Below are positions 3,778-55,949 of a DNA stretch of 64,000 nucleotides, in pieces (positions within the stretch are counted from its first letter, which is position 1; every line of letters starts with the position of its first letter). The notes beneath the pieces were generated by a model. That model worked only from the letters and a program-made list of their open reading frames with translations, searched no databases and had not been told where the DNA came from. Source of the DNA: a virus; the IMG/VR virus record IMGVR_UViG_3300042311_001406, positions 1 to 64,000 of that record. One strand, written 5' to 3'. The position numbers and the translations under genes were made by a program.

Positions 3778-4464
3778 ATGTCCGAAGAAGAAGTGAACGA
3801 AGAGAAGCCGATCGACGTCTTGAAGCTTGGTCGATCTGAACTCGAAAGCCTTTCGGCTGAGCAGGTGGCGTATGTCATCGGCATCAGCCTTCGCCGTCAA
3901 TCTCCACGTGTCTTCGACGCTGTGAAAGCAGCACTGAAGGGTCGGGAGTCGGACGTCATCCGCGCGATGATCAGTGCTGGCTACAAGTACGTCTCGCCTG
4001 AAATCGAGATCATGCCCGGTCTCAAGGTCTCGTTTCAGACCATGTACGAGCTGCAGTTGAGCGACGTGTATGAGACGACGGCGGCGGCGGCGCGCACAGC
4101 GAAGAGCCAGAACATCGCACCATCGATGATGAGCAAGTTGTTCCTGTGCTACAGCATCCACCGCTTGAACGGCGACTACCTCGGCCAGACCGAGTTCGGT
4201 ACGACGTTCTTCGAGTCGATGGAGCAGGACATCGTCTCGGCTGAGAAGTCGATGATCGCGGCTCGTGAGAAGCGCATGCATGCGATTTCTCGCATGTCGC
4301 CAACGATCATCTCGGCGCTGTCGGCGGCCCAGCAGTCGTTCCAGCTCTTTGTGGACGGCGTTATCGACTATCGCCCCACTGGCGACATCGTTGCTGACAC
4401 CGAGCGAGCGCAGGCCCTGGTGGGTGAAGTGGGAAAATCACAAGGTCCAGATCGGGCTGGGTAG
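3778..4464 (+). CDS. Tail assembly chaperone, short form (gpG-like), 228 aa
   Basis: ATG 3778 follows a good CAGGAGGG site. The protein is soluble and mostly helical, with an acidic N-terminus. Its job is inferred from architecture: it sits directly upstream of the tape-measure gene and carries a GGGAAAA slippery heptamer at codons 219-220. Beyond that site the -1 frame stays open to 4778, exactly as in the G/GT chaperone pair of lambda-like phages. Normal decoding ends eight codons after the slip site at TAG 4462. The family role is to bind the tape measure and recruit tail tube subunits. Sequence similarity to known G proteins was not judged. Confidence 0.8.
   Translation: MSEEEVNEEKPIDVLKLGRSELESLSAEQVAYVIGISLRRQSPRVFDAVKAALKGRESDVIRAMISAGYKYVSPEIEIMPGLKVSFQTMYELQLSDVYETTAAAARTAKSQNIAPSMMSKLFLCYSIHRLNGDYLGQTEFGTTFFESMEQDIVSAEKSMIAAREKRMHAISRMSPTIISALSAAQQSFQLFVDGVIDYRPTGDIVADTERAQALVGEVGKSQGPDRAG
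4431..4437 (+). promoter_or_regulatory. -1 ribosomal frameshift site GGGAAAA
   Basis: In the zero frame the codons are GTG GGA AAA, so the heptamer reads G GGA AAA and allows both tRNAs to re-pair after a one-base slip back (GGG AAA). It is the same class as lambda's GGGAAAG. A possible stimulatory hairpin begins about 5 nt downstream: AGGT near 4443 can pair with ACCT near 4471, enclosing CCAG/CTGG. The downstream -1 frame has no stop for 113 codons. This is direct sequence evidence; frameshift efficiency is unknown. Confidence 0.85.
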
Positions 4465-4778
4465 ACGCGAACCTCCGTTACGACGGGATTCGCACCCACG
4501 GCATTCTCCATCGGCTGCAGGCGGAGAATGTGTTCTGGGCCAGAACAGAGCTGCTCACACGACTCGTGGAGCTCTTTGTTGTGACCACGCTTCCTGACGA
4601 CGCCAGCCAAGGTCGACGAGACAAGGTGCTGGCTTCATTCAGGATGGTGCAGGAGGCCCTGTTCCCGTACTCGCAAGGTGAACGCCTGGAGCGAGAGCAG
4701 CGGCTGAAGCAGAAGATGGATTCCCCTGAGATGCAGAAGGAATTCACCGTCACAGCACAGAAGGCGCCACGAGACTGA
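4437..4778 (+). CDS. T-like frameshift extension of the tail chaperone
   Basis: Read in the -1 frame after the slip at 4431-4437, this adds 113 residues to the first 220 of the short form, for a 333-residue G-T-like fusion. The extension is rich in charged helical sequence (for example RRDKVLASFRMVQEALF and LEREQRLKQKM) and ends just before the terminator at 4782. There is no credible independent start: the first in-frame GTG (4530) has no clear ribosome site. In lambda-like phages the T part contacts the major tail protein; that role is carried over by analogy. Confidence 0.75.
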   Translation: MTRSRSGWVDANLRYDGIRTHGILHRLQAENVFWARTELLTRLVELFVVTTLPDDASQGRRDKVLASFRMVQEALFPYSQGERLEREQRLKQKMDSPEMQKEFTVTAQKAPRD

Positions 4779-4832: not shown

Positions 4833-7800
4833 ATGGTTGAGCCAAGCTACGGTTACGCCGGCACCCTCGACATGCTCTCGCGAAACCGCCCCTCGGAGGG
4901 CGGGAGCAGTCTGTATTCGGCGGCCAGTGAGCTGTCGAGCGCCGCGCGCATCATGCAGATGAGCCAGGGCGGCGTCTCGAACCAAACGCAGGCCATCGCT
5001 GCGATGGCTCAACAGCAACAGCAGCAGTCCCAGCAGATTGCACAGCTGATCAGTGGGCTGAGTTTCAACATCAGCCAGCTGTCTTCTGCCGTTGCGCAGA
5101 GTGTGGGTGCGCAGCGCGCTGCATCGCTCGCCACGCCACCGCTGGTGCAGTCGACTGGCGGCTTCATGCCAGGCGGCTTTGGCCACTCCGGCATGTCGGC
5201 GTTCAACCCGATGCCGATGATGTCGGCGCTCGGTGGCGGCGCGATGGCCGCTGGCCGACTCTTCGCTGGTGGCGCCAATCTGGCGATGCGCGGCATTGGC
5301 TACGCTGGTGGTGCCATGGCGTCGCCGTTCCTCGGTGGCCAGTACATGGGGCCTGGTGCTGGCCAGATGATGGGCACCTTCGGCAACGCAGGCTTCGCTC
5401 GAAGCTTCGCTGGCGGCATGGGCCTGAACATGGGCCTGCGTCCCGGCCAGTTCGCCATGGGCACCGAAGCGGCAGCAGACCGAGCTGGGTTCAAGGCTGG
5501 CGAGATCGCGATTGGTGCTGGTGCCGGCATCATGAATCTCGGCGGCAGCGTAATCGGCGGCCTGGGTCGCATGGGCGGACTGGCGGGCGGTCTTGGTGGC
5601 ATGCTGGGCGGCGCCCTCGGCGGCCAGATGGGGCCTGTCGGCGGCGCCCTTGGCACCATCGGCGGCACGGCTCTCGGCGGCTTCGCTATGGGTGGCCCAG
5701 CGGGAGCCGCGGCTGCCTTGGCCGGTCTCGCCATCACGAAGGCCGTGGAGGCCACCGTCGGCAAGATCGTCGAGAAAGCTGGCGAGATCCGCGGGAGCGG
5801 CGAGATGTTCGGGCGCAACGCGTTCCGCATGGGCGGCTCGCGACGCATGTCTCAGGTCGATCGCACGCAATTCGGCGTCGGCATGAGCAAGATGGCGACT
5901 GAAGACCTGACCTACAACATGCAAGATCTCCAAGAGATCATGGCTGGCGGCATCGAGAACGACATGTTCCGTGGCGTCAACGGCGCGCGTCAGGCTCAGC
6001 AGCGCATGCGCGAACTGAAGGACACCGTCAAGACGATCAGCCAGACGCTTGGCACCAGCATTCGCGAATCCATGGATGTGATGAACTCCATGCAGGGTCT
6101 TGGCATCGCTCCATCTGGCCAGATGAGTGCCATCCTCAGTGGATCAACAATCCAAGGCATGACTCGTGGTGAGGCTCTGCAGGGAAGCATGAGCTTCTCG
6201 AACCGATTTGCTGGCACCGGATTCCAAGGTCGCGGCCTCTTCAATCTCGGCACGCAGAGTCAGGGCCTTGGCCAAACGGCCATGCGCATGGGCCTGCTGA
6301 GCTCTGAGCAAATCGCAGCGGTTGGTGGCCGCCAGGGTGTTGGTCAGGTCATGGGCAACGTGACCATGGGCTTGGCGCAGAGCGGTCTCGGCACGATGAA
6401 CATGGCGGCGGCGATGCGTCGAGGCCATGCCGGTGTGAGCGGGAACGCCATGTCCGCGCTGTCTCAGGCGGGCGGTGCCGGGGGCGCCAGCGATCTCGTC
6501 GACTTCGCCGCCAACAAGAGCGAGTTGATGCGTGACGCCATCAACGATCCAGCGTTCCGCCTCAACATGCTGGCGCAGGTCTCCTCGATCGCCGATCAGT
6601 TTGCTGGTCAGGGCACGAAGAAGAATCGAATGAAGCTGGCGCTCAAGAGCTTCGGCATTGATGGCGCTGAGGCTGGCGTCTTCATGGCGATGATGGAGGC
6701 TGAGCCGCAGGCACAGCGCGACAGGCTCAACGAACTCCAGCGCGCCCGCAGCGACCTGCAGGCGAACCAGATCGCCGAGAACTACGACATTGGCGCTCTC
6801 GCGAGCCGCAAGGTTGGACGTCTGCTTGGTGGCCCTGCGGCGGCTGTGGCACGTGGAGCGGCAACGCTGGGTGACGCCGTCAACAACACGTCGCTGCGGA
6901 TGCGCAATGCCATCTTCGGCATCGGTCCAGACGTGTCGATGCGCACGAGCGATGTCACCGCCGAAGCGGCGCTGGCTTCTTTGAGCCGCACCGGTGTCGT
7001 CGGAGACGCTGGCGTCATCAACAGCTCGCCAACTTCTGACGACCAGAAGATTGCCAAGGACGCCGTCGAGGCCTTGAAGATCGACGGCGACTCCGACTTG
7101 TCGACGCTCCAGAACACGGACAACGACTCTGACAAGAAGACCGCGGCGAGCAGCCTGATCCAGAAGCTGACCCAAAACGTCGGCGACAACAGCCCCGAGA
7201 TGAAGAAGGCGCTGGCGATGGCCTTGGCAGCGGCGACCGGCCAAGACGTCAACGGCCTCCTGTTTGGCAGCGGCGGCATGGGGGCCAGCGCTGAGCGCCT
7301 GGCTGGTGCTCAGGCGATGAACGATGCCCTGCGGAGCGCGCTCACGGGCGGCGGTGAGACCGCGGCAGGCGTTGGCCTGGGGGCAGGCATCGGCATGGGC
7401 ATCGGCGCCCTGCTGTCGCCGTTCACGGGTGGCGCCAGCATCCTGGCCGGTGGCGCCCTCGGCGGCTACCTGGGCAACAAAGTCGCTGGCAACCAGTTCA
7501 GCGACGAAGACATGAACCGCGTGATGCGTTCGCCTGCGGCGCTGCGCATGCTGAAGAACAAGCAGAAGCTCGCCAGCGGCAACCTGTCCGCCGAGGAAGC
7601 CGCCAAGGTTCGGCAGGAGATCAACGCGGACAAAGCCTCGCTGAGCGGTGAAGGCACCAGCGACAACATCATCCAGCGCCTCGACAGCCTGAGTGGTGGC
7701 AGCCTCGACGCGGCAGTCAAGACCATCGTGTCTGGCGCTGCTGATGCGGCCAGCCTTGGCTTCGACCTCTCGCTGCAGGGCGGTATGAGCGCGGCCCGTA

Positions 7801-8237
7801 TGGCTGCAGAGGAAGCTGGTCTTGGCGGCCTGAGCACGCAGCTTTCTGGCGGCGTCGACAACCTTGGCGCAGCGCTGTCGTCGATCGCAGGCCTCTCGGG
7901 AGAAGATCGCGAATCCCTCAAGGCACACGGCGGCGACGCGCTCATCAAGGCAGCCAGCATCAACAGCAGCATGACCGATGCGCAGCTGCAGAAGATCCTG
8001 GGCACAGACGCTGTCTTGAACAAAGACGGCACCGTCAACGTGGCCGCCAGCCAGCGCAAGATCATCGCCGCCAGCGGCGCCATGGACAGCAACCGTGCTG
8101 CTGGTGTCGGCAGCTCGGCGTTCACGGCTGAGCAGACGCGAGCCCAGGTGCAGCTCTCCGCCCAGATCCAGCAAACGGCTTCGCTGCTGAAGGATACCGT
8201 GCAGGTCATCGAAGCAATGAAGCTGAAGGGGAAATGA
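4833..8237 (+). CDS. Tape measure-like tail protein, 1134 aa
   Basis: Long Gly/Ala/Met-rich protein directly after the G/GT-type chaperone pair, the classic tape-measure position. Residues 35-100 form a Gln-rich coiled coil. About 110-320 is a run of glycine-zipper-like, weakly hydrophobic segments (GGALGG, GGMLGG), and another lies near 850-895 (GVGLGAGIGMGIG); between and after these it is helical. Tape measures set tail length and often help DNA cross membranes; at 1134 residues it would suit a long tail. It appears to start from a leaderless mRNA (see 4821). Its stop overlaps the next gene (ATGATG at 8234). The assignment rests on composition and context, not on a recognised domain. Confidence 0.8.
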   Translation: MVEPSYGYAGTLDMLSRNRPSEGGSSLYSAASELSSAARIMQMSQGGVSNQTQAIAAMAQQQQQQSQQIAQLISGLSFNISQLSSAVAQSVGAQRAASLATPPLVQSTGGFMPGGFGHSGMSAFNPMPMMSALGGGAMAAGRLFAGGANLAMRGIGYAGGAMASPFLGGQYMGPGAGQMMGTFGNAGFARSFAGGMGLNMGLRPGQFAMGTEAAADRAGFKAGEIAIGAGAGIMNLGGSVIGGLGRMGGLAGGLGGMLGGALGGQMGPVGGALGTIGGTALGGFAMGGPAGAAAALAGLAITKAVEATVGKIVEKAGEIRGSGEMFGRNAFRMGGSRRMSQVDRTQFGVGMSKMATEDLTYNMQDLQEIMAGGIENDMFRGVNGARQAQQRMRELKDTVKTISQTLGTSIRESMDVMNSMQGLGIAPSGQMSAILSGSTIQGMTRGEALQGSMSFSNRFAGTGFQGRGLFNLGTQSQGLGQTAMRMGLLSSEQIAAVGGRQGVGQVMGNVTMGLAQSGLGTMNMAAAMRRGHAGVSGNAMSALSQAGGAGGASDLVDFAANKSELMRDAINDPAFRLNMLAQVSSIADQFAGQGTKKNRMKLALKSFGIDGAEAGVFMAMMEAEPQAQRDRLNELQRARSDLQANQIAENYDIGALASRKVGRLLGGPAAAVARGAATLGDAVNNTSLRMRNAIFGIGPDVSMRTSDVTAEAALASLSRTGVVGDAGVINSSPTSDDQKIAKDAVEALKIDGDSDLSTLQNTDNDSDKKTAASSLIQKLTQNVGDNSPEMKKALAMALAAATGQDVNGLLFGSGGMGASAERLAGAQAMNDALRSALTGGGETAAGVGLGAGIGMGIGALLSPFTGGASILAGGALGGYLGNKVAGNQFSDEDMNRVMRSPAALRMLKNKQKLASGNLSAEEAAKVRQEINADKASLSGEGTSDNIIQRLDSLSGGSLDAAVKTIVSGAADAASLGFDLSLQGGMSAARMAAEEAGLGGLSTQLSGGVDNLGAALSSIAGLSGEDRESLKAHGGDALIKAASINSSMTDAQLQKILGTDAVLNKDGTVNVAASQRKIIAASGAMDSNRAAGVGSSAFTAEQTRAQVQLSAQIQQTASLLKDTVQVIEAMKLKGK

Positions 8238-21393: not shown

Positions 21394-24285
21394 ATGACGA
21401 TGACCGATGTCATTCGTGTTCGTGTCTGGATCGAAGGCGTCCTTCTGCCTGATGCTGCGTTTGGCGGCATCGACACAAACTCAGCGGCCAGGGGTGGCGC
21501 TGGCGCAACGTTGTCGATCCTCAACATTCCTGGCATGCGACCTGAGGAGTGGGGGCGCGCTCGCTGCGCCGTGGCGTGGAGCAACGTCGAGATCAGAAAG
21601 ACCCGAGGCGAAGACTGGCCGATGCTGTACGACGGAGAGATCGTCGCGTACGGCGACCACAAGAACCCGATGAGTCGCAGCGTCCAGTTTTCGCTCAACA
21701 GCGAGGACATTCACTTCGATCAGTGCCGTCTGTACTACTTCAATCGAGATACGGGAGCCAACGTCATCAACGTGCCGAAGACAGCGTACTTCTTCGGCAA
21801 CTCGTCGATCGAAGAGAGCATTGCGGCACCCGGTCTTGACACCGTCAATCGTCTCGTCGAAGCCATTCGTGCGCAGGGGAACGCCCCGCTGCCATCGAGC
21901 ATGCGCACGGCTTTCAAGGCAACGCTGAGCACGAACTTCTTCTTTGAGCGAGCTCGCCAGCAGCTTGGTCTCGATCGACGCTTCGGCGTGGCGAAGGATG
22001 ACTTCGCGGCTCTCTTGTACTCGAAGAGGGACCTGTTGTTCTCGCAACTGGAAAACGGCGTCGCCGTTCGCGAGGGCGACACGCCTATTCGACAGATCAT
22101 CGAAGAGATGCTCTCGAAGTTCCGCTACGGCCTGACGGTGAACCCGCAGCCAACCGTGATTCGTGGCGGCGACAAAACCGACTTGTCCCCCATCACCGAA
22201 CAGCGAAACCAGGCGCTCGCATCGGCCGAAGAGATCTGCATTCGCCTGCTGGGTGTTTCGCCTTCGATGGTGCCCATCACCGAGCGAACGACGGACGAAG
22301 AGATCAAGGTCATCGCGCTGAAGATTGCGCACCCCACGACCCGTGCGAACCTCTTCCCGGCTGCAGACCTCAGCCTCGAAGGCGTCAGCCTGCTCAGCGA
22401 TCCGGCGACCAGCACCGGCGACATCCAGAGCTACATGGATGAGATTGGCCCCAGCATCATCGAGTCGTTGAAGCTGATTCGCAGCGAGCTGTTGCGCGCC
22501 GCAAGCACAGCGACGACACGAGCTGCCGTCGAGGTGATGGACGAGGACGCAGACTTCAGGGATTACGTCGCTCAGTTCATGCTGCTGCCAGACATGCAGC
22601 TGGCGGCGATCCCTCGTTGCAATGTGATCTTTCCGAACGAGAACAGCAGCTACAGCACCAGCAGGAACTTTCTGCAGGAGCCGACGCGCACCATGAAGTC
22701 GGTGCCCACCGTCAATGGCGCCTCGGATGAAGTCTACTTCGCTCCTGGCAATCTCTCGACGACTGCCGTCAAGAAGACACCGGTCACGACGTACACCGGC
22801 AACTTCTCCATGTGCCCGCCTGTGCTTGTAGCTGGCGGCATCAGCAAAGTGATGGGGAGCAAGTTCGGGAACCGACAGGACCCACTCAACAGCACGGAGA
22901 CCAAGCTCAAGGCTCACAGGGGCATCGACCTCCGCGTTCCCAAGAGAACGCCAGTGCTCTCGGTGCTGGATGGCACCGTCATGTCGTCCCAGCTCGACAA
23001 GCCAAAGGCTGGTGGCCTGTACGTGGTGATCCAGCATGTCGGGAACGACTATACGAAGTACATGCACCTGCTCTCGTCTTCAGTGAAGCCTGGAGACACG
23101 GTCAAGGCTGGCCAGCAGATCGGATTCAGCGGTGGTGATCCAGCCGACGGGCTCAGCGCTGGCGGCAGCACTGGTCCACATCTTCACTTCGAGCTGCACC
23201 GCGGTAGCCGGTCGAATCCGGTGAACCCGGCCGACTTCCTGTTCAAGTGCCAAGACGCGTTCGACAAGAGCGTTGGCAGCGGCAGCGTGTTGGCGACGTC
23301 GTCGGCAGCCACGGAGATCGCGGCCGTTGACGAAGAAAATGCGCAGACGATGGCTGACGGCATCAACAACACCAGCGAGAAGCCGTTCGCTGATTTCGAG
23401 TTCCTGACGCCCGCAGAAGAGGTCCTTGGCATCGTTCCGAACATCGACACGTCGATGGATCGAACCATGACCACGTACTCCGTGCAGGGTGGAGAAGATG
23501 GCCGGAAGAAATACCTGCAGCAGCTGGTGGAAGCCGATCATCAGTCAGCCAGGTACAGTAGCCGAAGCTTTTCGCCGGTGACGATGCCGTTCACGCCGCG
23601 ACTCGTCGCAGGAATGCCCGGTCTCATCGTCGACAACTTTCGACCCGTGATCGTGTTCATCGAGTCGGTGCATCACTCCTATAACCCAGCTGGCGAGGCA
23701 ACGACGACGGCGTCGGTGCGCGGCTACCGGTTCTGGGACGAGGGCGACCCGTACTACTGGCGCGGCGGCAGGGAAGCATTCAAGGAGGCAACCAAGGATC
23801 AGGATGGCGTCAAACAGCCGGACCCTGACGTCGCCAACTTCCCTGGGTTCATGCTGCCCTCCATCTTCGCGACCAACAGCTACGAAGGTCCGCCTGAGAC
23901 CAGCAATGAACCGTTTGGCGGCAAGAACCAGGCACGTCCGAACGATGCGTTCTTTGAGTCGATGATCGGGTGCAAGGGGCTGCCGTACTACTACACGGAG
24001 CGCCAGAGCCCCATCACCGGCGAGACCTTGTCGTACAACGCCTTCATTGGCCACCTCGTGAACTACTACCGGGCGCTGGTTGACACCAGCCACGAGGCTG
24101 CCTCTGGTTTTGTGGACAGTTTCACCTCTCGCTCGTCAATGCACGTCGACGAATACTTCCTGCAGCTCCTCAAATGCCAACCGGGCGCAGGCGGCTACAA
24201 CGGACCCGCATTCCGTGCAACAATCAGGGCCGTCGTTTTGGACTACGTGGCCAAGGTCAGCTCGTCGCACGCATTCAGAGGGTGA
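21394..24285 (+). CDS. Baseplate/tail-tip protein with M23 peptidase domain, 963 aa
   Basis: Residues about 500-620 form a LytM/M23 metallopeptidase domain: His508 and Asp512 in HRGID, His596 and His598 in PHLHFE, and the barrel signature GDTVKAGQQIGFSGG. M23 enzymes cut peptide cross-links of peptidoglycan, so this protein probably opens the cell wall during infection. Before it, residues 1-480 form a large region likely to hold the hub fold, with a beta-rich start (VIRVRVWIEGVLLPD). After it come a linker and a C-terminal domain containing PGLIVDNFRPVIVFIESV. All zinc and catalytic residues appear intact. It is closely spaced between the repeat protein and the sigma-like gene. Confidence 0.85.
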   Translation: MTMTDVIRVRVWIEGVLLPDAAFGGIDTNSAARGGAGATLSILNIPGMRPEEWGRARCAVAWSNVEIRKTRGEDWPMLYDGEIVAYGDHKNPMSRSVQFSLNSEDIHFDQCRLYYFNRDTGANVINVPKTAYFFGNSSIEESIAAPGLDTVNRLVEAIRAQGNAPLPSSMRTAFKATLSTNFFFERARQQLGLDRRFGVAKDDFAALLYSKRDLLFSQLENGVAVREGDTPIRQIIEEMLSKFRYGLTVNPQPTVIRGGDKTDLSPITEQRNQALASAEEICIRLLGVSPSMVPITERTTDEEIKVIALKIAHPTTRANLFPAADLSLEGVSLLSDPATSTGDIQSYMDEIGPSIIESLKLIRSELLRAASTATTRAAVEVMDEDADFRDYVAQFMLLPDMQLAAIPRCNVIFPNENSSYSTSRNFLQEPTRTMKSVPTVNGASDEVYFAPGNLSTTAVKKTPVTTYTGNFSMCPPVLVAGGISKVMGSKFGNRQDPLNSTETKLKAHRGIDLRVPKRTPVLSVLDGTVMSSQLDKPKAGGLYVVIQHVGNDYTKYMHLLSSSVKPGDTVKAGQQIGFSGGDPADGLSAGGSTGPHLHFELHRGSRSNPVNPADFLFKCQDAFDKSVGSGSVLATSSAATEIAAVDEENAQTMADGINNTSEKPFADFEFLTPAEEVLGIVPNIDTSMDRTMTTYSVQGGEDGRKKYLQQLVEADHQSARYSSRSFSPVTMPFTPRLVAGMPGLIVDNFRPVIVFIESVHHSYNPAGEATTTASVRGYRFWDEGDPYYWRGGREAFKEATKDQDGVKQPDPDVANFPGFMLPSIFATNSYEGPPETSNEPFGGKNQARPNDAFFESMIGCKGLPYYYTERQSPITGETLSYNAFIGHLVNYYRALVDTSHEAASGFVDSFTSRSSMHVDEYFLQLLKCQPGAGGYNGPAFRATIRAVVLDYVAKVSSSHAFRG

Positions 24286-24287
24286 AC

Positions 24288-25019
24288 ATGCAGCCGAATC
24301 AAGACTCAGAAGAAGCGCTCGCCCTGGCGTTCCAGCGTGGAGATCTCGAAGCGCTGCGTCGCCTTCGGTCGAGGACGAACGACTTGGTTCTGGCTTCCAG
24401 CCGACGGTTCCAGACGGGACCGGGCCACATCCCGGTGACGGTGCTCAACGCCAAGGCCGATGAACTCCTCGTCGACGCTGCTCGCACGTACAAGCCTGGA
24501 ACCGGTGCGACGTTCAGGACGCACCTCTTCAACCATCTGCGTCGCCTGGATCGGTTCACCAAGGCGAATGCGAACATTGCGCACAAGCCAGAAGCTCGCG
24601 CGAACATGATCACAAACTTCAATCAGCAGTACGCTCTGCTGGCTGACAAGAAACAGCGGCCGCCGACGCCAAGCGAGATGGCTGACCACATGTCGATTCC
24701 TGTCGAGCATGTCCAGCTCATGATGAGTTCGCAGCGTCGAGAAATCCCATGGAGCCATGGGACTGGCACCAGCAACGCCTCCATGAATGAAGCGCACGTC
24801 AACATGGTGCTCTCGAACATCCGCCACGAACTCACTCCTGATGAGATCAAGGTGTTCGACTACCTCATGGGCACCAACGGCAAGAAGAAGACAGCGGTCG
24901 GCGGCGAGATCGCCAAAGGCACTGGATTCAGTCAGGCCAAGGTGAGCCAGCTGCGCACCGCCATCGCCAAGAAGATTCAGCCGCACCTGTCTGGGATGAC
25001 GGCACGGAGCTTCGCGTGA
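24288..25019 (+). CDS. Sigma-70-family-like factor, 243 aa
   Basis: ATG 24288 is chosen because of the AGAGGG ribosome site and the 2-bp gap after the M23 gene. Residues about 53-93 look like sigma region 2 (ADELLVDAARTYKPGTGATFRTHLFNHLRR, cf. the FxPxxGxxFxTY helix). Residues 122-146 resemble region 3 (PPTPSEMADHMSIPVEHVQ). Residues 180-233 resemble region 4 with its helix-turn-helix (LTPDEIKVFDYLMG, GEIAKGTGFSQAKVSQLRTAI). It may direct host or phage RNA polymerase to a class of phage promoters. Its place inside the tail operon is unusual. It overlaps the next gene by GTGA. Confidence 0.75.
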   Translation: MQPNQDSEEALALAFQRGDLEALRRLRSRTNDLVLASSRRFQTGPGHIPVTVLNAKADELLVDAARTYKPGTGATFRTHLFNHLRRLDRFTKANANIAHKPEARANMITNFNQQYALLADKKQRPPTPSEMADHMSIPVEHVQLMMSSQRREIPWSHGTGTSNASMNEAHVNMVLSNIRHELTPDEIKVFDYLMGTNGKKKTAVGGEIAKGTGFSQAKVSQLRTAIAKKIQPHLSGMTARSFA

Positions 25020-31632: not shown

Positions 31633-31669
31633 CTCTCGTCTGACGATGTCGGCGTCGTCAGGTTCGCAC

Positions 31670-32383
31670 TCAGGCTTCAGCGGCGCCAGGCGTGAAGCTG
31701 TCGTCGGTGTGGTCGGCGTCAGCAGCGGCCACTGGCGTGTTCTCGCTGGTGTCGACCGCCGCGGCGGCAACGGCCTTGGCCTTCTTGGCTTTCTTGGTCA
31801 CGATCACGATCTCAGCCTTCGCGGCCTTGGCTTTCTTCGCGGCAGGCGCCGCCTTCTTCGAGGCCTTCGCGGCCTTCGCCGCCGCCTTCTTCGGCTCAGC
31901 CTTGGCCTTCGCCTTCGTGGCCTTGGCCTTCTTGGCGGCGGGGGCCGCCTTCTTCGCAGCCTTCGTGGCCTTCTTGGCTGGGCCAGACTTGGGCGCCTCA
32001 TCGAAGTGCCACGCGTCGACAGTCGAGCAGCGGGGCGTGTAGTAGTGGACGTTGCCCTTCTCGTCGGTCGAGGCCACGAGGTACCGGCGATGAGCGCTCT
32101 GCGGGGTGCGGGTCTCGACACGCGACGGCAGGGTCTTGGCGGGGACGTGCTTCCACGCGTCGACGTTCTCGGCGAGGAACTTCTTGACGACGCCAGACTT
32201 GACGTTCCACTCGCCGCGGACCTGCGAGGACCACTCGACCGTGGTGCCAACTTCGATCCGAGGCTTGTAGGCGGCAGGCGCCGCGCTCTTGGCCTTCACC
32301 TTGGCAGCCTTGGGGGCCTTCGTCGCCTTGGCAGTCTTCGCGGCTTTCGCCGGCTTCTTCTTCGAGTTCTTCTTGCTGGCCAT
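31670..32383 (-). CDS. Histone H1-like basic DNA-binding protein, 237 aa
   Basis: Start MASKKNSKKK at 32383 is preceded by GGGAAG; the longer upstream frame is the antisense of the next gene and is not used. Residues 1-38 and about 135-215 are Lys/Ala/Pro tails with AAKKA-type repeats as in bacterial H1-like proteins (HctB/AlgP style). Between them a compact domain of about 95 residues (IEVGTTVEWSSQVRGEW, HYYTPRCSTVDAWHF) has no tail-like bias. The last 25 residues are acidic. It probably binds and condenses DNA. It is the only minus-strand gene inside the virion block, with its own promoter and terminator. Confidence 0.8.
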   Translation of the reverse strand: MASKKNSKKKPAKAAKTAKATKAPKAAKVKAKSAAPAAYKPRIEVGTTVEWSSQVRGEWNVKSGVVKKFLAENVDAWKHVPAKTLPSRVETRTPQSAHRRYLVASTDEKGNVHYYTPRCSTVDAWHFDEAPKSGPAKKATKAAKKAAPAAKKAKATKAKAKAEPKKAAAKAAKASKKAAPAAKKAKAAKAEIVIVTKKAKKAKAVAAAAVDTSENTPVAAADADHTDDSFTPGAAEA

Positions 32384-32482
32384 GTGATTCTTCCCTTGCG
32401 TGAGCGGTTGGACTTCCCTTATAGGATCGATGCAGATGATCACAGCCTCGGATCGGCTGTCAACACGAAACTGGAGGAAATA
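32384..32482. promoter_or_regulatory. Divergent promoter region
   Basis: This 99-bp gap separates the H1-like gene (minus) and the deaminase-like gene (plus). The run CCTTATAGGATCG carries TAGGAT at 32422-32427 for the plus strand and TATAAG on the minus strand, so two -10 elements overlap. A small inverted repeat CAGCC...GGCTG lies at 32443-32459. Overlap of the two -10 boxes implies mutually exclusive firing. Confidence 0.45.
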
Positions 32483-33163
32483 GTGAGCGTTCAGACGAAT
32501 ACCAGCATCAAGAAGATGATTTCTGAAGACGAGATCATCATGAGGCCCATGCGCCCGGAGCAAATCAACAACGGGAGCGTCGACGTCACACTGGGCCGGT
32601 TCGCGTGGCGCCTCAAGGACAAGTTTCGTAACGACTTTGATCCAAGCAAGCCGCTGATTGGGCAGCTTTGCGTCTGCCCAACGGCCATGGTCGGACACGA
32701 CATCTTCGACCTTGTCGACATCCAGCGAGACCACGGAGGTCAAATCTGGTTCGGCCCTGGTGAACGGATGATCATGCACACGCATGAGTTCATCGGAAGC
32801 CGACATCGCTCCCTTCCAGAAATGCGCGCAAAGAGCTCGTCCATGCGGTGGGGGTTCACCTTGTCAGGGGACGCCGGATGGGGTGATGTAGGCTTCTTTT
32901 CGAGGTGGGCAACGGAGCCCGTCAACTTCAATCCATGCCCAATGGTTCTGGCTGTTGGCCAGCTGGTCGGCCAGGTCATCTTCCACGCCGTCGAGACACC
33001 GGAGGCTGGCACCCTGTATCACGAAAAAGGGAACTACCAGAACGAGAGCGACATCGAGGAGATCATCAAGAGCTGGCATCCGCGCGATCTTTTGCCAAAG
33101 AGGATGAAAGTCGTTCCATTTGAAGCGATGAACGACGCGGACCGTTTTGGAGTGCAGCCATAG
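32483..33163 (+). CDS. dcd: dCTP deaminase/dUTPase-family enzyme, 226 aa
   Basis: GTG 32483 is selected for the GGAGG site 5-9 nt upstream; the long upstream frame is spurious. Family marks: NNGSVDVTLG near residues 31-40, MRAKSSSMRWGFTLSGDAGWGDVGF near 114-138 (the SSxxRxG nucleotide loop and AGWxDxGF strand), and LAVGQLVGQVIFHAVE near 154-169. The usual deaminase length is about 190 residues, so this is slightly long at the C-terminus. It would make dUMP or dUTP for thymidylate synthesis or remove dUTP. Dcd versus Dut activity cannot be settled by eye. It is read from the bidirectional promoter gap. Confidence 0.8.
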   Translation: MSVQTNTSIKKMISEDEIIMRPMRPEQINNGSVDVTLGRFAWRLKDKFRNDFDPSKPLIGQLCVCPTAMVGHDIFDLVDIQRDHGGQIWFGPGERMIMHTHEFIGSRHRSLPEMRAKSSSMRWGFTLSGDAGWGDVGFFSRWATEPVNFNPCPMVLAVGQLVGQVIFHAVETPEAGTLYHEKGNYQNESDIEEIIKSWHPRDLLPKRMKVVPFEAMNDADRFGVQP

Positions 33164-51540: not shown

Positions 51541-52251
51541 ATGCGGAACAAGTACAGGAAGGATGTCTTCGTCGTTGCCGTGGAAGGCATCATCGGAGCA
51601 GGAAAGACCACGCTCACCAAGCGCTTGCGCGATGAGCTTCATCTGCATGAAGTGCCGGAGCCGGTTGAAGACAACCCGTTCCTCGAAAACTTCTACAAGG
51701 ACCAAAAGAAGTGGGCCTTCCCCATGCAGATGTGGATGGTGCAGCGTCGAGCGGAGTCGATTGCTGACGCCGTCGAAAGTCACAAGAACATCATCACGGA
51801 CCGCAGCCTGGTGGGAGACATGGTCTTCGCCAAGATGCACAAAGACAACGGAAACATCGACGCCGAGATGTGGCCCGTCTACCGCGACACCTGGAGCATG
51901 ATGAACCGCTTGCTGGCACCCGTGCCAGACGTCATCGTCTTCCTGGATGTGAACCCCAGCACCGCGTTCAAACGCATGCACAACCGAGGGAGACAGTCCG
52001 AAGTCGACGGCGTCACACTGTCGTATCTTCAGGATCTCTGTGCCACATACCGCTCCACCATCGAGAAGTTGGGTAGCAACTTCAACGGGACGGAGTCATT
52101 CCGTCATACGCGCATCGAATGCCTCAAAGGAGACACTGATCACGCCGTGATCGTCGACATCGTCAAGCGACACATGGCCAACAAGACCGCCGCTTTCTCG
52201 AACGCCGCCGCCGCCAACGAGTACAACAACGACAACGAGGTCAAGCTGTGA
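51541..52251 (+). CDS. dnk: Deoxynucleoside kinase, 236 aa
   Basis: ATG 51541 has GGAGGAAG upstream. Walker A EGIIGAGKTT at residues 15-24, the catalytic Asp-Arg-Ser (Asp87-Ser89) in ITDRSLVGD, PEPVED near 38-43, and an Arg-rich lid near RMHNRGR. It would phosphorylate deoxynucleosides to feed DNA synthesis. It overlaps the ribonucleotide reductase gene by GTGA (52248), which supports a shared nucleotide-supply operon. Substrate preference cannot be told. Confidence 0.9.
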   Translation: MRNKYRKDVFVVAVEGIIGAGKTTLTKRLRDELHLHEVPEPVEDNPFLENFYKDQKKWAFPMQMWMVQRRAESIADAVESHKNIITDRSLVGDMVFAKMHKDNGNIDAEMWPVYRDTWSMMNRLLAPVPDVIVFLDVNPSTAFKRMHNRGRQSEVDGVTLSYLQDLCATYRSTIEKLGSNFNGTESFRHTRIECLKGDTDHAVIVDIVKRHMANKTAAFSNAAAANEYNNDNEVKL

Positions 52252-55200
52252 AGAACACCGTCACGATTCCATCCGCCGACTCCATCGACTACACGCTGAG
52301 CATTGCCGGCGACAAGATCGAGTGCAGGGTCCATAGCATCGACATCGTCAACTTCAACAAGCGTGACGTCGCCATCGAAGGCAGCGGCTTCAAGCAGAAG
52401 GATGTCGAGGCTCCTGACTTCTGGAGCGACACGGCCGTCCGCATCGTCGCCAACAAGTATTTCCGCGGCCACGACAGCGATCGCGAGAACAGCGTCAAGC
52501 AGCTGGTTGCTCGTGTCGTCGGCTCAATCGTCGACTTCCTCGACAGCAAGGACCGTTTCGCCAGCGCCACCGACAAGCACAGCTTCAAAAGTGTCCTGAC
52601 CCATCTGCTCTACGTGCAAGCGTTCGCGTTCAACAGCCCGGTGTGGTTCAACCTCGGCACCGAAGTCAGCCCGCAGTGCAGCGCTTGCTTCATCCTCGGC
52701 GTCGACGACAACATCGAATCCATCCTCAAGTGGATCAACGACGAAAGCCTCGTCTTCCGTCGTGGCAGCGGTGCCGGCGTCAACATCTCCCGCATCCGCC
52801 ACAAGAACGCGCGTCTGCAGGGCGGCGGCCACGCCAGCGGCCCGCTGAGCTTCGCCAACGGCGCCAACTACATGGCCGGCGCCATCAAGAGCGGCGGCAA
52901 GACGCGTCGCGCGGCCAAGATGCTGGTCATGAACGACAACCACCCCGACGTCTTCGACTTCATCGACACGAAGTCGATTGCCGAGCGCGTCGCCAAGGCG
53001 CTGATCGCTGGTGGCTTCAGCTCGAAGTTCAATGCCGAAGGCGGCGCCTACGAGCTCGCCCCCTGGCAGAACGCCAACAACAGCGTGAGCCTGTACGACC
53101 GCTTCCTCAATGCCGTCTTGGTCGACGGAGACCATGACCTCGTTGACCACAAGGGCGCTGTGGTTCGCACCATCAAGGCTCGCGAGCTGTGGCGCAAGAT
53201 GGGTGAGGCAGCCTGGGAATCCGGTGACCCCGGCCTCCACTTCCGTGACACGATGAACCGCTTCAACACGGTCGCAGAAGATGGCGAGATTGAAGCCAGT
53301 AACCCGTGCTGCTTCACCGGCGAGACGCTCGTCGACACCAGCGAAGGAAAGATCCGCATCGACGAACTCGTCGCTCGAAGCCAGCGCGGTGAGGACCTGC
53401 CAATGGCATGGGCCTTTGACCTTGAATCGTCGCTGCCTGTCTTGCGCCGCATCGTCAAAGCCTGGAAGGCCGGCGACGCGACCAAGCTTGTCCGCGTCAC
53501 GACGGACCGCGGCATCAGTGTGTTGTGCACACCTGAGCACCGCTGGCTGAAGCGCAATGGCGCTTGGGTGGAGGCTCAGCATCTGAAAGCTGGGGACAGC
53601 CTGCGCAAAACGGCGCGCTGGGTGAACAAGGATCGCTCTGGTCGCCACTGCTTGAACATGCGTGGCACAGAGTCAGCGCCAAACGGAACCGTCTGGCAGA
53701 ACCGATACATGTGGGAGCAGGCCTATGGACCAATTCCTGACGGCATGGAAGTTCACCACAAAAACGGAGACCCGACTGACGACCGCCTCAGCAACTTTGA
53801 GCTGATCCCTGTCAGCGATCATCGCTCTGAACACTCGGCTGGCGACGAGAACCCACGTTTCATTGACGTGGAAGATCATGTGCTTGTGGAGGCGTGGGAT
53901 GCTGTCGCTGCCGGCAGAAAGCGTGGTTCCGGTGTGACGCCAACAACATGGAACGCACACATCAACAGCAATGGGCTCAAAGGACATCTGCCGTTGGCTG
54001 CATCACCAACGAACGGAGGGCGAATCCAAGGCATGCCTTGGGCGGAGTTCGAGAGCAAGATCAACGAGCTGCGTTCATCTGTGAACGATCGCGTCGTCAG
54101 CGTCGAGTTCATTGCCAACGACACGGCGACATCCGTCTTCGACATCGAAGTTGAAGGCGTGCACAACTTCTCGGTGACCAGCCCCGGCGCTGTTCATTCG
54201 GTCGTGGTGCACAACAGCGAGTACCTGTTCATCAACAACACCAGCTGCAACCTCGCGAGCTTCAACCTCGTGCGGTACATGATCCGTGACGGTCTCAAGC
54301 GCGTGTTCAACTGGCGCGCATTCCAGCGTGACGGCTTGGCGATGTACCTGTGTCTCGACGCCATCGTCGACATCAGCAGCTACCCGACGCCAGAGATCGA
54401 CGAGACGACCCGCAAGTACCGCACGCTTGGTGCCGGGTACGCCAACATTGGCGGCATGCTGATGCGTATGGGCATTCCGTACGACAGCGACGAAGGCCGT
54501 CACATGATCGCCGTCATCACCAGCGCGCTCCAGGGCACCATGGTCTGCAACAGCATGAAAGCTGCTGAGGCCTGGGGCACATTCGATCGCTACGAAGCGA
54601 ACCGTGATCACGTCGACAAGGTGATTCTGTCGCACTACAACGCACAGGTCGGGCTGACCTACAACAAAGACGACGTGGTGTGGAATCCGTGGCAGCACTA
54701 CGAGCAGACTGTCCTGCGAGACAACACGAAGATCGCGCGTGTGCGCAACGCGCAGTTCACGGTCGTGGCGCCCACTGGCACCATCGGCTTCATGATGGAC
54801 GTCGACACGACGGGCATCGAGCCAGACTTCAGCCTGGTGAAGTACAAGGAGATGGTTGGCGGCGGCTACATGACGCTGGTCAACACCGCGATGTCCGAAG
54901 GCCTCGAAGTGCTGGGCTACGATGAGGAGACGCGCAAAGCCATTGAGGCGCACGTCACAACCACTGGCGGTGTCGTCGAAGGCGCTCCCGGTCTGAAGCC
55001 AGAGCACTACGGCGTCTTCGACTGCGCGGTCGCAGCGTTCGGCGGCACACGCTTCATTCGCCCTGAGGCGCACATTGAGGCCATGGCCGAGGCGCAGCCG
55101 TTCCTCAGCGGCGCCATCAGCAAGACCGTCAACATGCCAGAGTCGTCGACGGTGGATGACATCCTCGACATCTACATGAAGTCGTGGAAGCTGGGTCTCA

Positions 55201-55949
55201 AAGCTGTTGCCGTCTACCGCGACAACTGCAAGCAGAGCCAGCCGCTCAGCACCTCGAAGACGACGGACAAGGGCAGCGCCACCGTCATCCTTGAGTCGGC
55301 TCCAGCGACGTCGATGTCTTACGACGACATGACGATCTGCAAGTTGGAAGCGCAGATCAAAGACCTGAAGTCGATCATTGGCAGCCTGCGACGTGGAGAG
55401 CGTGAGCGCCTGTCGACGTCGCACATGGGCCACATCCACAAATTCACCATTCAGGGGATGAGTGGCCACTTGACGGTCGGCTTCTACGACGATGGCCGCA
55501 TCGGCGAAGTCTTCGTCGAGATGAGCAAGGAAGGCAGCACCGTCGGTGGCTTCCTGGACGCCTGGAGCAAGGCATTCTCGCTCATGCTGCAGTACGGCGC
55601 TCCGCTGACTGAAGTCCTGCAGAAGTTCGAGGGCAGCCGCTTCGAGCCATCTGGCTTCACGCTCAACGAGAACATCCGCACCTGCACATCGGTGATCGAC
55701 TACGTCAGCCGCTACATGAAGATGCTGAGCTCAAGCGCACCGAAGGCGGCTCCGATGCTCGACAGTGCCCCTGGCGACCATCAGGTTGAGGAAGGTGAAG
55801 ACGTCGACGATTCGCACGTCCCGTCAAACACGCAGAAGTTCGTCGACACCAATGGTCGCATCTGTTCGTCATGCGGAAGCAGCAACCTGCGTCAAAGCGG
55901 CGCCTGCTTCGTTTGCAATGAGTGTGGCTCAAGCACGGGGTGTGGCTGA
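52248..55949 (+). CDS. nrdJ: Class II (NrdJ-type) ribonucleotide reductase with intein, 1233 aa
   Basis: GTG 52248 overlaps the kinase stop. Extein marks: NSPVWFNLG and CSACFILGVDDNI (about 129-155), FRRGSGAGVNISRIR near 169-183, ASNPC ending at 354 and SEYLFINNTSCNLASFNL resuming at 657, and VVAPTGTIGFMMD near 841-853. A TSCPD domain lies at about 1065-1145. The C-terminal ICSSCGSS...CNECGSSTGCG is the Cys-rich tail of NrdJ enzymes. Class II enzymes use adenosylcobalamin and need no small subunit, and none is seen here. After splicing the enzyme would be 931 residues. It reduces ribonucleotides to deoxyribonucleotides for phage DNA. Confidence 0.9.
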   Translation: MKNTVTIPSADSIDYTLSIAGDKIECRVHSIDIVNFNKRDVAIEGSGFKQKDVEAPDFWSDTAVRIVANKYFRGHDSDRENSVKQLVARVVGSIVDFLDSKDRFASATDKHSFKSVLTHLLYVQAFAFNSPVWFNLGTEVSPQCSACFILGVDDNIESILKWINDESLVFRRGSGAGVNISRIRHKNARLQGGGHASGPLSFANGANYMAGAIKSGGKTRRAAKMLVMNDNHPDVFDFIDTKSIAERVAKALIAGGFSSKFNAEGGAYELAPWQNANNSVSLYDRFLNAVLVDGDHDLVDHKGAVVRTIKARELWRKMGEAAWESGDPGLHFRDTMNRFNTVAEDGEIEASNPCCFTGETLVDTSEGKIRIDELVARSQRGEDLPMAWAFDLESSLPVLRRIVKAWKAGDATKLVRVTTDRGISVLCTPEHRWLKRNGAWVEAQHLKAGDSLRKTARWVNKDRSGRHCLNMRGTESAPNGTVWQNRYMWEQAYGPIPDGMEVHHKNGDPTDDRLSNFELIPVSDHRSEHSAGDENPRFIDVEDHVLVEAWDAVAAGRKRGSGVTPTTWNAHINSNGLKGHLPLAASPTNGGRIQGMPWAEFESKINELRSSVNDRVVSVEFIANDTATSVFDIEVEGVHNFSVTSPGAVHSVVVHNSEYLFINNTSCNLASFNLVRYMIRDGLKRVFNWRAFQRDGLAMYLCLDAIVDISSYPTPEIDETTRKYRTLGAGYANIGGMLMRMGIPYDSDEGRHMIAVITSALQGTMVCNSMKAAEAWGTFDRYEANRDHVDKVILSHYNAQVGLTYNKDDVVWNPWQHYEQTVLRDNTKIARVRNAQFTVVAPTGTIGFMMDVDTTGIEPDFSLVKYKEMVGGGYMTLVNTAMSEGLEVLGYDEETRKAIEAHVTTTGGVVEGAPGLKPEHYGVFDCAVAAFGGTRFIRPEAHIEAMAEAQPFLSGAISKTVNMPESSTVDDILDIYMKSWKLGLKAVAVYRDNCKQSQPLSTSKTTDKGSATVILESAPATSMSYDDMTICKLEAQIKDLKSIIGSLRRGERERLSTSHMGHIHKFTIQGMSGHLTVGFYDDGRIGEVFVEMSKEGSTVGGFLDAWSKAFSLMLQYGAPLTEVLQKFEGSRFEPSGFTLNENIRTCTSVIDYVSRYMKMLSSSAPKAAPMLDSAPGDHQVEEGEDVDDSHVPSNTQKFVDTNGRICSSCGSSNLRQSGACFVCNECGSSTGCG
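53310..54215 (+). mobile_element. Intein with HNH homing endonuclease, 302 aa
   Basis: Inserted between the Cys and Ser of the reductase NPC/SEY motif. It begins with Cys355 (CFTGETLVDT, block A), has a TPEH block B near VLCTPEHRWL, and ends VFDIEVEGVHNF (block F) and SVVVHN with Asn656 before Ser657 (block G), all needed for splicing. An HNH-type endonuclease lies inside (MEVHHKNGDPTDDRLSNFEL, His503/His504). Both splicing and homing residues look intact, so it may still be mobile. Confidence 0.9.

Follow-up and report, generated by a model that had tools for sequence, protein, structure and literature searches.

A predicted tail-assembly chaperone gene with a probable -1 ribosomal frameshift site, from a divergent family shared with Salmonella phage Arash

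Two overlapping open reading frames (ORFs) lie ahead of a long gene in the IMG/VR virus record IMGVR_UViG_3300042311_001406, and the question they raise is whether they encode two separate proteins or a single protein in two lengths, the longer of which would require ribosomal frameshifting. The window analysed here is the first 64 kb (64,000 nucleotides) of this 91,322-base record. We consider it highly probable, from comparison with related phages, that the two frames form one gene for a tail-assembly chaperone and that a programmed -1 ribosomal frameshift of the lambda G/GT type links them. The zero-frame ORF (3778..4464, plus strand) is predicted to encode the short form of the chaperone, 228 amino acids (aa) in length, and contains the slippery heptamer GGGAAAA (4431..4437, plus strand) in phase with its codons as G_GGA_AAA, where the zero-frame reading is GTG GGA AAA TCA. 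In the -1 frame, the last upstream stop lies just before 4428 and the frame is open from 4428 to a TGA at 4776-4778. After slippage the window would be read as GGG AAA and then ATC ACA AGG, and the extension (4437..4778, plus strand; 113 codons and the TGA), read only after slippage, would give a predicted fusion of 220 + 113 = 333 residues. The zero-frame stop is eight codons past the slip. An earlier sequence-only reading of the window had claimed the phase of the heptamer, the 113 open codons of the -1 frame to 4778, the sizes of both products and the eight-codon distance, and translation of the two frames bears out all of these claims.

In-phase heptamers of the form X_XXY_YYZ (Y = A/T) occur only 7 times in the 12,956 codons of 16 other genes on the same strand, and GGGAAAN does not occur in phase in these codons. 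By this base-rate count, about 0.006 in-phase heptamers are expected by chance over the 11 eligible positions. In the -1 frame, the GC content of the extension by codon position (0.68/0.39/0.71) is as expected for the GC-rich coding DNA here. The window comes from a single assembly and its two frames overlap by just 37 nucleotides (nt), which would suit a chance heptamer, or an assembly indel that splits one ordinary gene; given the low base rate, and given that the break recurs at one position across many independent assemblies and in isolated phages (see below), this explanation is extremely improbable. Transcriptional slippage was set aside, as long homopolymer runs are lacking at the sites.

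Relatives of the locus were drawn from an alignment-guided terminase scan, which gave 65 loci. No relative was found when viral contigs were scanned with single sequences of the chaperone, the gene upstream of it, an 860-aa gene and the terminase, tblastn of annotated phages gave no match to the window chaperone, the tape-measure-like gene or a 355-aa gene, and bacterial genome contigs scanned with the extension gave no match. Two records, G001 (155,932 bases) and G002 (18,899 bases), hold homologues of both window halves, and a viral scan with the extension returned the same two records only. The zero-frame halves match the window with expectation values (E) of 1.6e-15 (G001) and 3e-20 (G002) and the -1 halves with E of 1.1e-10 and 3.2e-14, respectively, at about 25-30% identity per half. 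In both records the two frames overlap at G_GGA_AAC, which takes the position of the window heptamer and has a TGA immediately after it, and the homologous extension starts at the slip itself (in G002, GKLIKTPSDWVASNLYYDGV). Searching 41 further records with a profile brought in G037, G008 and G036; most records that gave no match are fragments, and they are uninformative. The heptamer in G037 is AAATTTC, and the junction in G008 reads G_GGA_AAC TTC TAA. The comparison with relatives that the sequence-only reading had proposed came out in its favor, in that the -1 frame is open at the corresponding position in all relatives with both halves, and all of them except one (G036) have an in-phase slippery heptamer there.

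The terminase and the RNA polymerase relate the window to Salmonella phage Arash and to the Vibrio phages D181, D148 and D69. In Arash, a myophage, gp2 (185 aa) and gp3 stand before gp4 (1097 aa); in the three Vibrio phages, which are identical in this region and were counted once, genes 2 and 3 stand before a 1044-aa gene. Arash and each Vibrio phage have the second gene in the -1 frame, where it overlaps the first by 46 nt in Arash and by 13 nt in D181, and the overlap holds AAATTTC in phase (A_AAT_TTC) with a TAA at once after it. Arash gp228/gp229 had been a first positional guess for the counterparts and were dropped after the region was read. Similarly, 14 loci of the terminase scan, some near-identical to one another, carry a -1 pair before a long gene and an in-phase AAATTTC or AAATTTT that runs straight into TAA or the first base of TAA. 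A few matches with long overlaps and a different layout (L010, L012, L016, L018, L068, L074 and a minus-strand match in the window) were treated as chance. The Arash and Vibrio records annotate the two halves as separate hypothetical genes, without a fusion protein, and the Arash paper uses none of the words frameshift, tape measure or chaperone in its main text (PMC10585845).

The window compared with Arash and D181 alone gave no clear relation; this came with the addition of G001, G002 and further Arash-like loci. Between the resulting window and Arash groups, the alignment of the fused proteins spans the junction and covers 184 columns (hhalign score 46.1, P = 1.3e-5), and the maximum in 150 column shuffles is 23.5. 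The zero-frame halves alone score 36.5, vs. 21.3 in shuffles. G008 matches both groups, with scores of 49.0 and 35.1. The conserved slip site, the open -1 frame and the fusion shared with relatives support the frameshifted tail chaperone pair that had been proposed for this locus. Sequence comparison establishes the slip site, the open -1 frame, the homology of the halves and of the fusion and the constraint on the extension; actual slippage, its rate and the chaperone function are what we infer.

Among close relatives, purifying selection acts on the extension frame, judging from ratios of nonsynonymous to synonymous change (pN/pS) of 0.06-0.25 in most close pairs (0.06 for Arash/L039, 0.12 for L054/L065, 0.22 for Arash/L036 and 0.24 for L029/L030) and of 0.46 for G001/G002. 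The pN/pS between the window and its relatives says little because synonymous change is near saturation. A rival reading is that the second ORF is translated from an internal start by re-initiation after the first gene, giving two separate proteins and no fusion. Arash and the Vibrio phages do have an internal ATG at the annotated start of the second gene, and the extensions of many members contain some start codon. However, no start codon is at a position common to all members, and the first one is at codon 31 of the extension in the window and at codon 28 in G001, downstream of a conserved W..NL.YDG block in both, which argues against separate initiation. Separate proteins would also leave the conserved in-phase heptamer without a reason, and the overlap of the frames is conserved even where it is reduced to the 13 nt of D181. 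Re-initiation in place of a fusion is therefore very unlikely.

What the products do is suggested by the next gene and by virion data. A long conserved gene (4833..8237, plus strand; 1134 aa) follows the pair in the window, as had been claimed, and in G001 the pair is followed by a homologous 1139-codon open frame (phmmer E = 3.4e-47). The G002 contig ends too soon to show the next gene, and in G008 the pair is separated from the next long gene. The product is a putative tape measure, judging from position, length and homology. Its positional counterpart in Arash, Gp4, is in the virion table with 1952 spectra and 88% coverage, and neither Gp2 nor Gp3 is listed there (PMC10585845). Chaperones such as lambda G and GT leave the particle and are absent from virions (PMC5009743). 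The absence of Gp2 and Gp3 is supporting, and not decisive because 116 of the 252 Arash proteins were detected.

The two halves were also folded separately with AlphaFold. The short-form model (12 sequences) has a mean predicted local distance difference test score (pLDDT) of 76.8 and a predicted template modelling score (pTM) of 0.69, and consists of helices around a beta hairpin. Among predicted viral structures, its fold is closest to phage proteins that are unnamed or uncharacterised (E = 0.006-0.0075), and next to a Rhodococcus phage Finch protein annotated as a tail assembly chaperone (probability 0.99, E = 0.057). For the extension, the model is poor (pTM 0.44) and a fold search with it was uninformative. 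As an observation on another phage, Gp181 and Gp182 of Bacillus phage G, which are consecutively numbered, match the short-form fold (probability 0.99 and 0.60), and this model-based resemblance suggests that they are perhaps an unrecognised chaperone pair.

Several results weigh against the chaperone frameshift as we read it. The fold matches are at E of 0.006 or worse with template modelling scores of about 0.4, and a fold search of the PDB with the short form found no match. Neither window half matches Pfam or NCBIfam, and the PHROGs hits (E = 0.09 for the extension and 0.0065 for the short form of another member) are unnamed and below a useful level. The 190-aa gene upstream has no family match in the library searches, with no recognisable major tail protein there, and the identity of the 4833-8237 product as a tape measure is unproven. 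Between the window and Arash groups, the extensions alone score 17.1, below the shuffles (20.6), and homology of the extensions between the groups rests on colinearity because they do not exceed shuffles by themselves. In G036 (L087, minus strand), the junction is TCT TTT TAG, without a heptamer, and the -1 product continues FLDYPWA; a single-codon slip on the T run before the stop is possible there in place of the heptamer. Finally, the downstream fold of the window is barely better than shuffles (z = -0.8 to -1.8, and -1.1 to -1.8 for most placements).

The modest fold match and the lack of a curated chaperone family would also fit the same -1 fusion working in a way unrelated to chaperones, as part of the virion or in assembling the head or baseplate; in Arash, moreover, the pair adjoins the terminase gene and the annotated major tail protein is elsewhere. 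Against this, tail chaperone genes usually have this layout, with a short zero-frame protein and a -1 extension immediately ahead of a gene of some 1000 codons, the Arash virion table has the product of the next gene and not the pair, and there is a fold match to an annotated chaperone. We regard a role of this kind as unlikely. If the locus works as a frameshifted chaperone gene, most ribosomes would read 3778-4464 and make the 228-aa short form, and a minority would slip back one base on G_GGA_AAA, read 113 more codons and make the 333-aa long form, whose additional helical domain would exist only within the fusion. By analogy with lambda gpG/gpGT, many copies of the short form would coat the tape measure, the extra domain of the long form would recruit tail-tube subunits, and both forms would leave before the virion is completed.

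The possible stimulatory hairpin of the sequence-only reading (4459..4497, plus strand; 21 nt past the heptamer) is thus weak in the window itself, and what stands of this claim is a covarying stem-loop at a like distance in the Arash group. In much of this group the downstream fold is clearer, with z down to -5 vs. control means near -0.3; L029 is an exception, without clear downstream structure. A helix of 15 pairs, placed some 20 nt past the heptamer, is common to seven aligned sequences of the group, with four pairs changed on both sides. Its covariation score is reached by no shuffle and collapses in slid versions of the helix, although this control can be inflated by kinship among the sequences, and seven is a small number. 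A spacing of about 20 nt is greater than is usual for frameshift stimulators. A rather unlikely proposal would be that Arash-like phages with their own RNA polymerase have a separate chaperone family in which pausing at termination, and not a near hairpin, drives the slip, with the slip usually abutting the stop, a stem-loop about 20 nt downstream, and AAATTTY and GGGAAAN exchanged while place and product are kept.

Among the closest known systems, lambda gpG/gpGT slips on G_GGA_AAG and has products absent from virions (PMC5009743), as Gp2 and Gp3 are from the Arash virion table. Unlike lambda, the stop abuts the slip site in the relatives of the window, the window pair has no recognised major tail protein upstream, the studied counterparts are contractile-tailed (Arash), and the window proteins have no detectable sequence relation to gpG/gpGT in the libraries searched. 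Arash gp2/gp3 and genes 2/3 of Vibrio phages D181, D69 and D148 belong to the same family by the fused-form profile, and share the -1 relation and the position ahead of a gene some 1000 codons long; they differ from the window in having AAATTTC and not GGGAAAA, a stop directly after, a neighboring terminase and an annotation as two genes. The G-T type frameshift of halovirus HCTV-1 uses G_GGA_AAC (PMC5009743), as do G001, G002 and G008, and the likeness is that of the heptamer; HCTV-1 is an archaeal siphovirus, unlike the window group. The mechanism is already known; the family is new, divergent and outside curated libraries. It would extend the lambda-type chaperone frameshift to poorly characterised large phages, including isolated ones, and suggests an exchange of slip sites with position kept. 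The annotations of Arash and of Vibrio phages D181, D69 and D148 lack the fusion protein, and the genes concerned can be named in these cultivable phages.

That the window comes from a large phage, as had been claimed, is supported by relatives of 156-187 kb; the record itself is a 91 kb linear fragment. A GpA-type terminase is encoded in the rest of the record, beyond the window. A single 2041-codon ORF that fuses RNA polymerase beta and beta' (L002; record 62416-68541) starts in the window and has NLDLDGD where the active-site motif of beta' is expected, and the beta and beta' parts are in separate genes in Arash and the Vibrio phages. A sigma-factor-like gene (24174-25019) comes after a virion-type M23 peptidase gene (21394-24285), a gene order common to the window and Arash, and the Arash sigma factor was found in virions. 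A class II ribonucleotide reductase gene (52248-55949; 1233 aa) contains an in-frame intein with an HNH endonuclease at about residues 355-656. The 505-aa protein encoded at 31646-33163 has an N-terminal region with no assigned domain and, toward its C-terminus, a dCTP deaminase domain.
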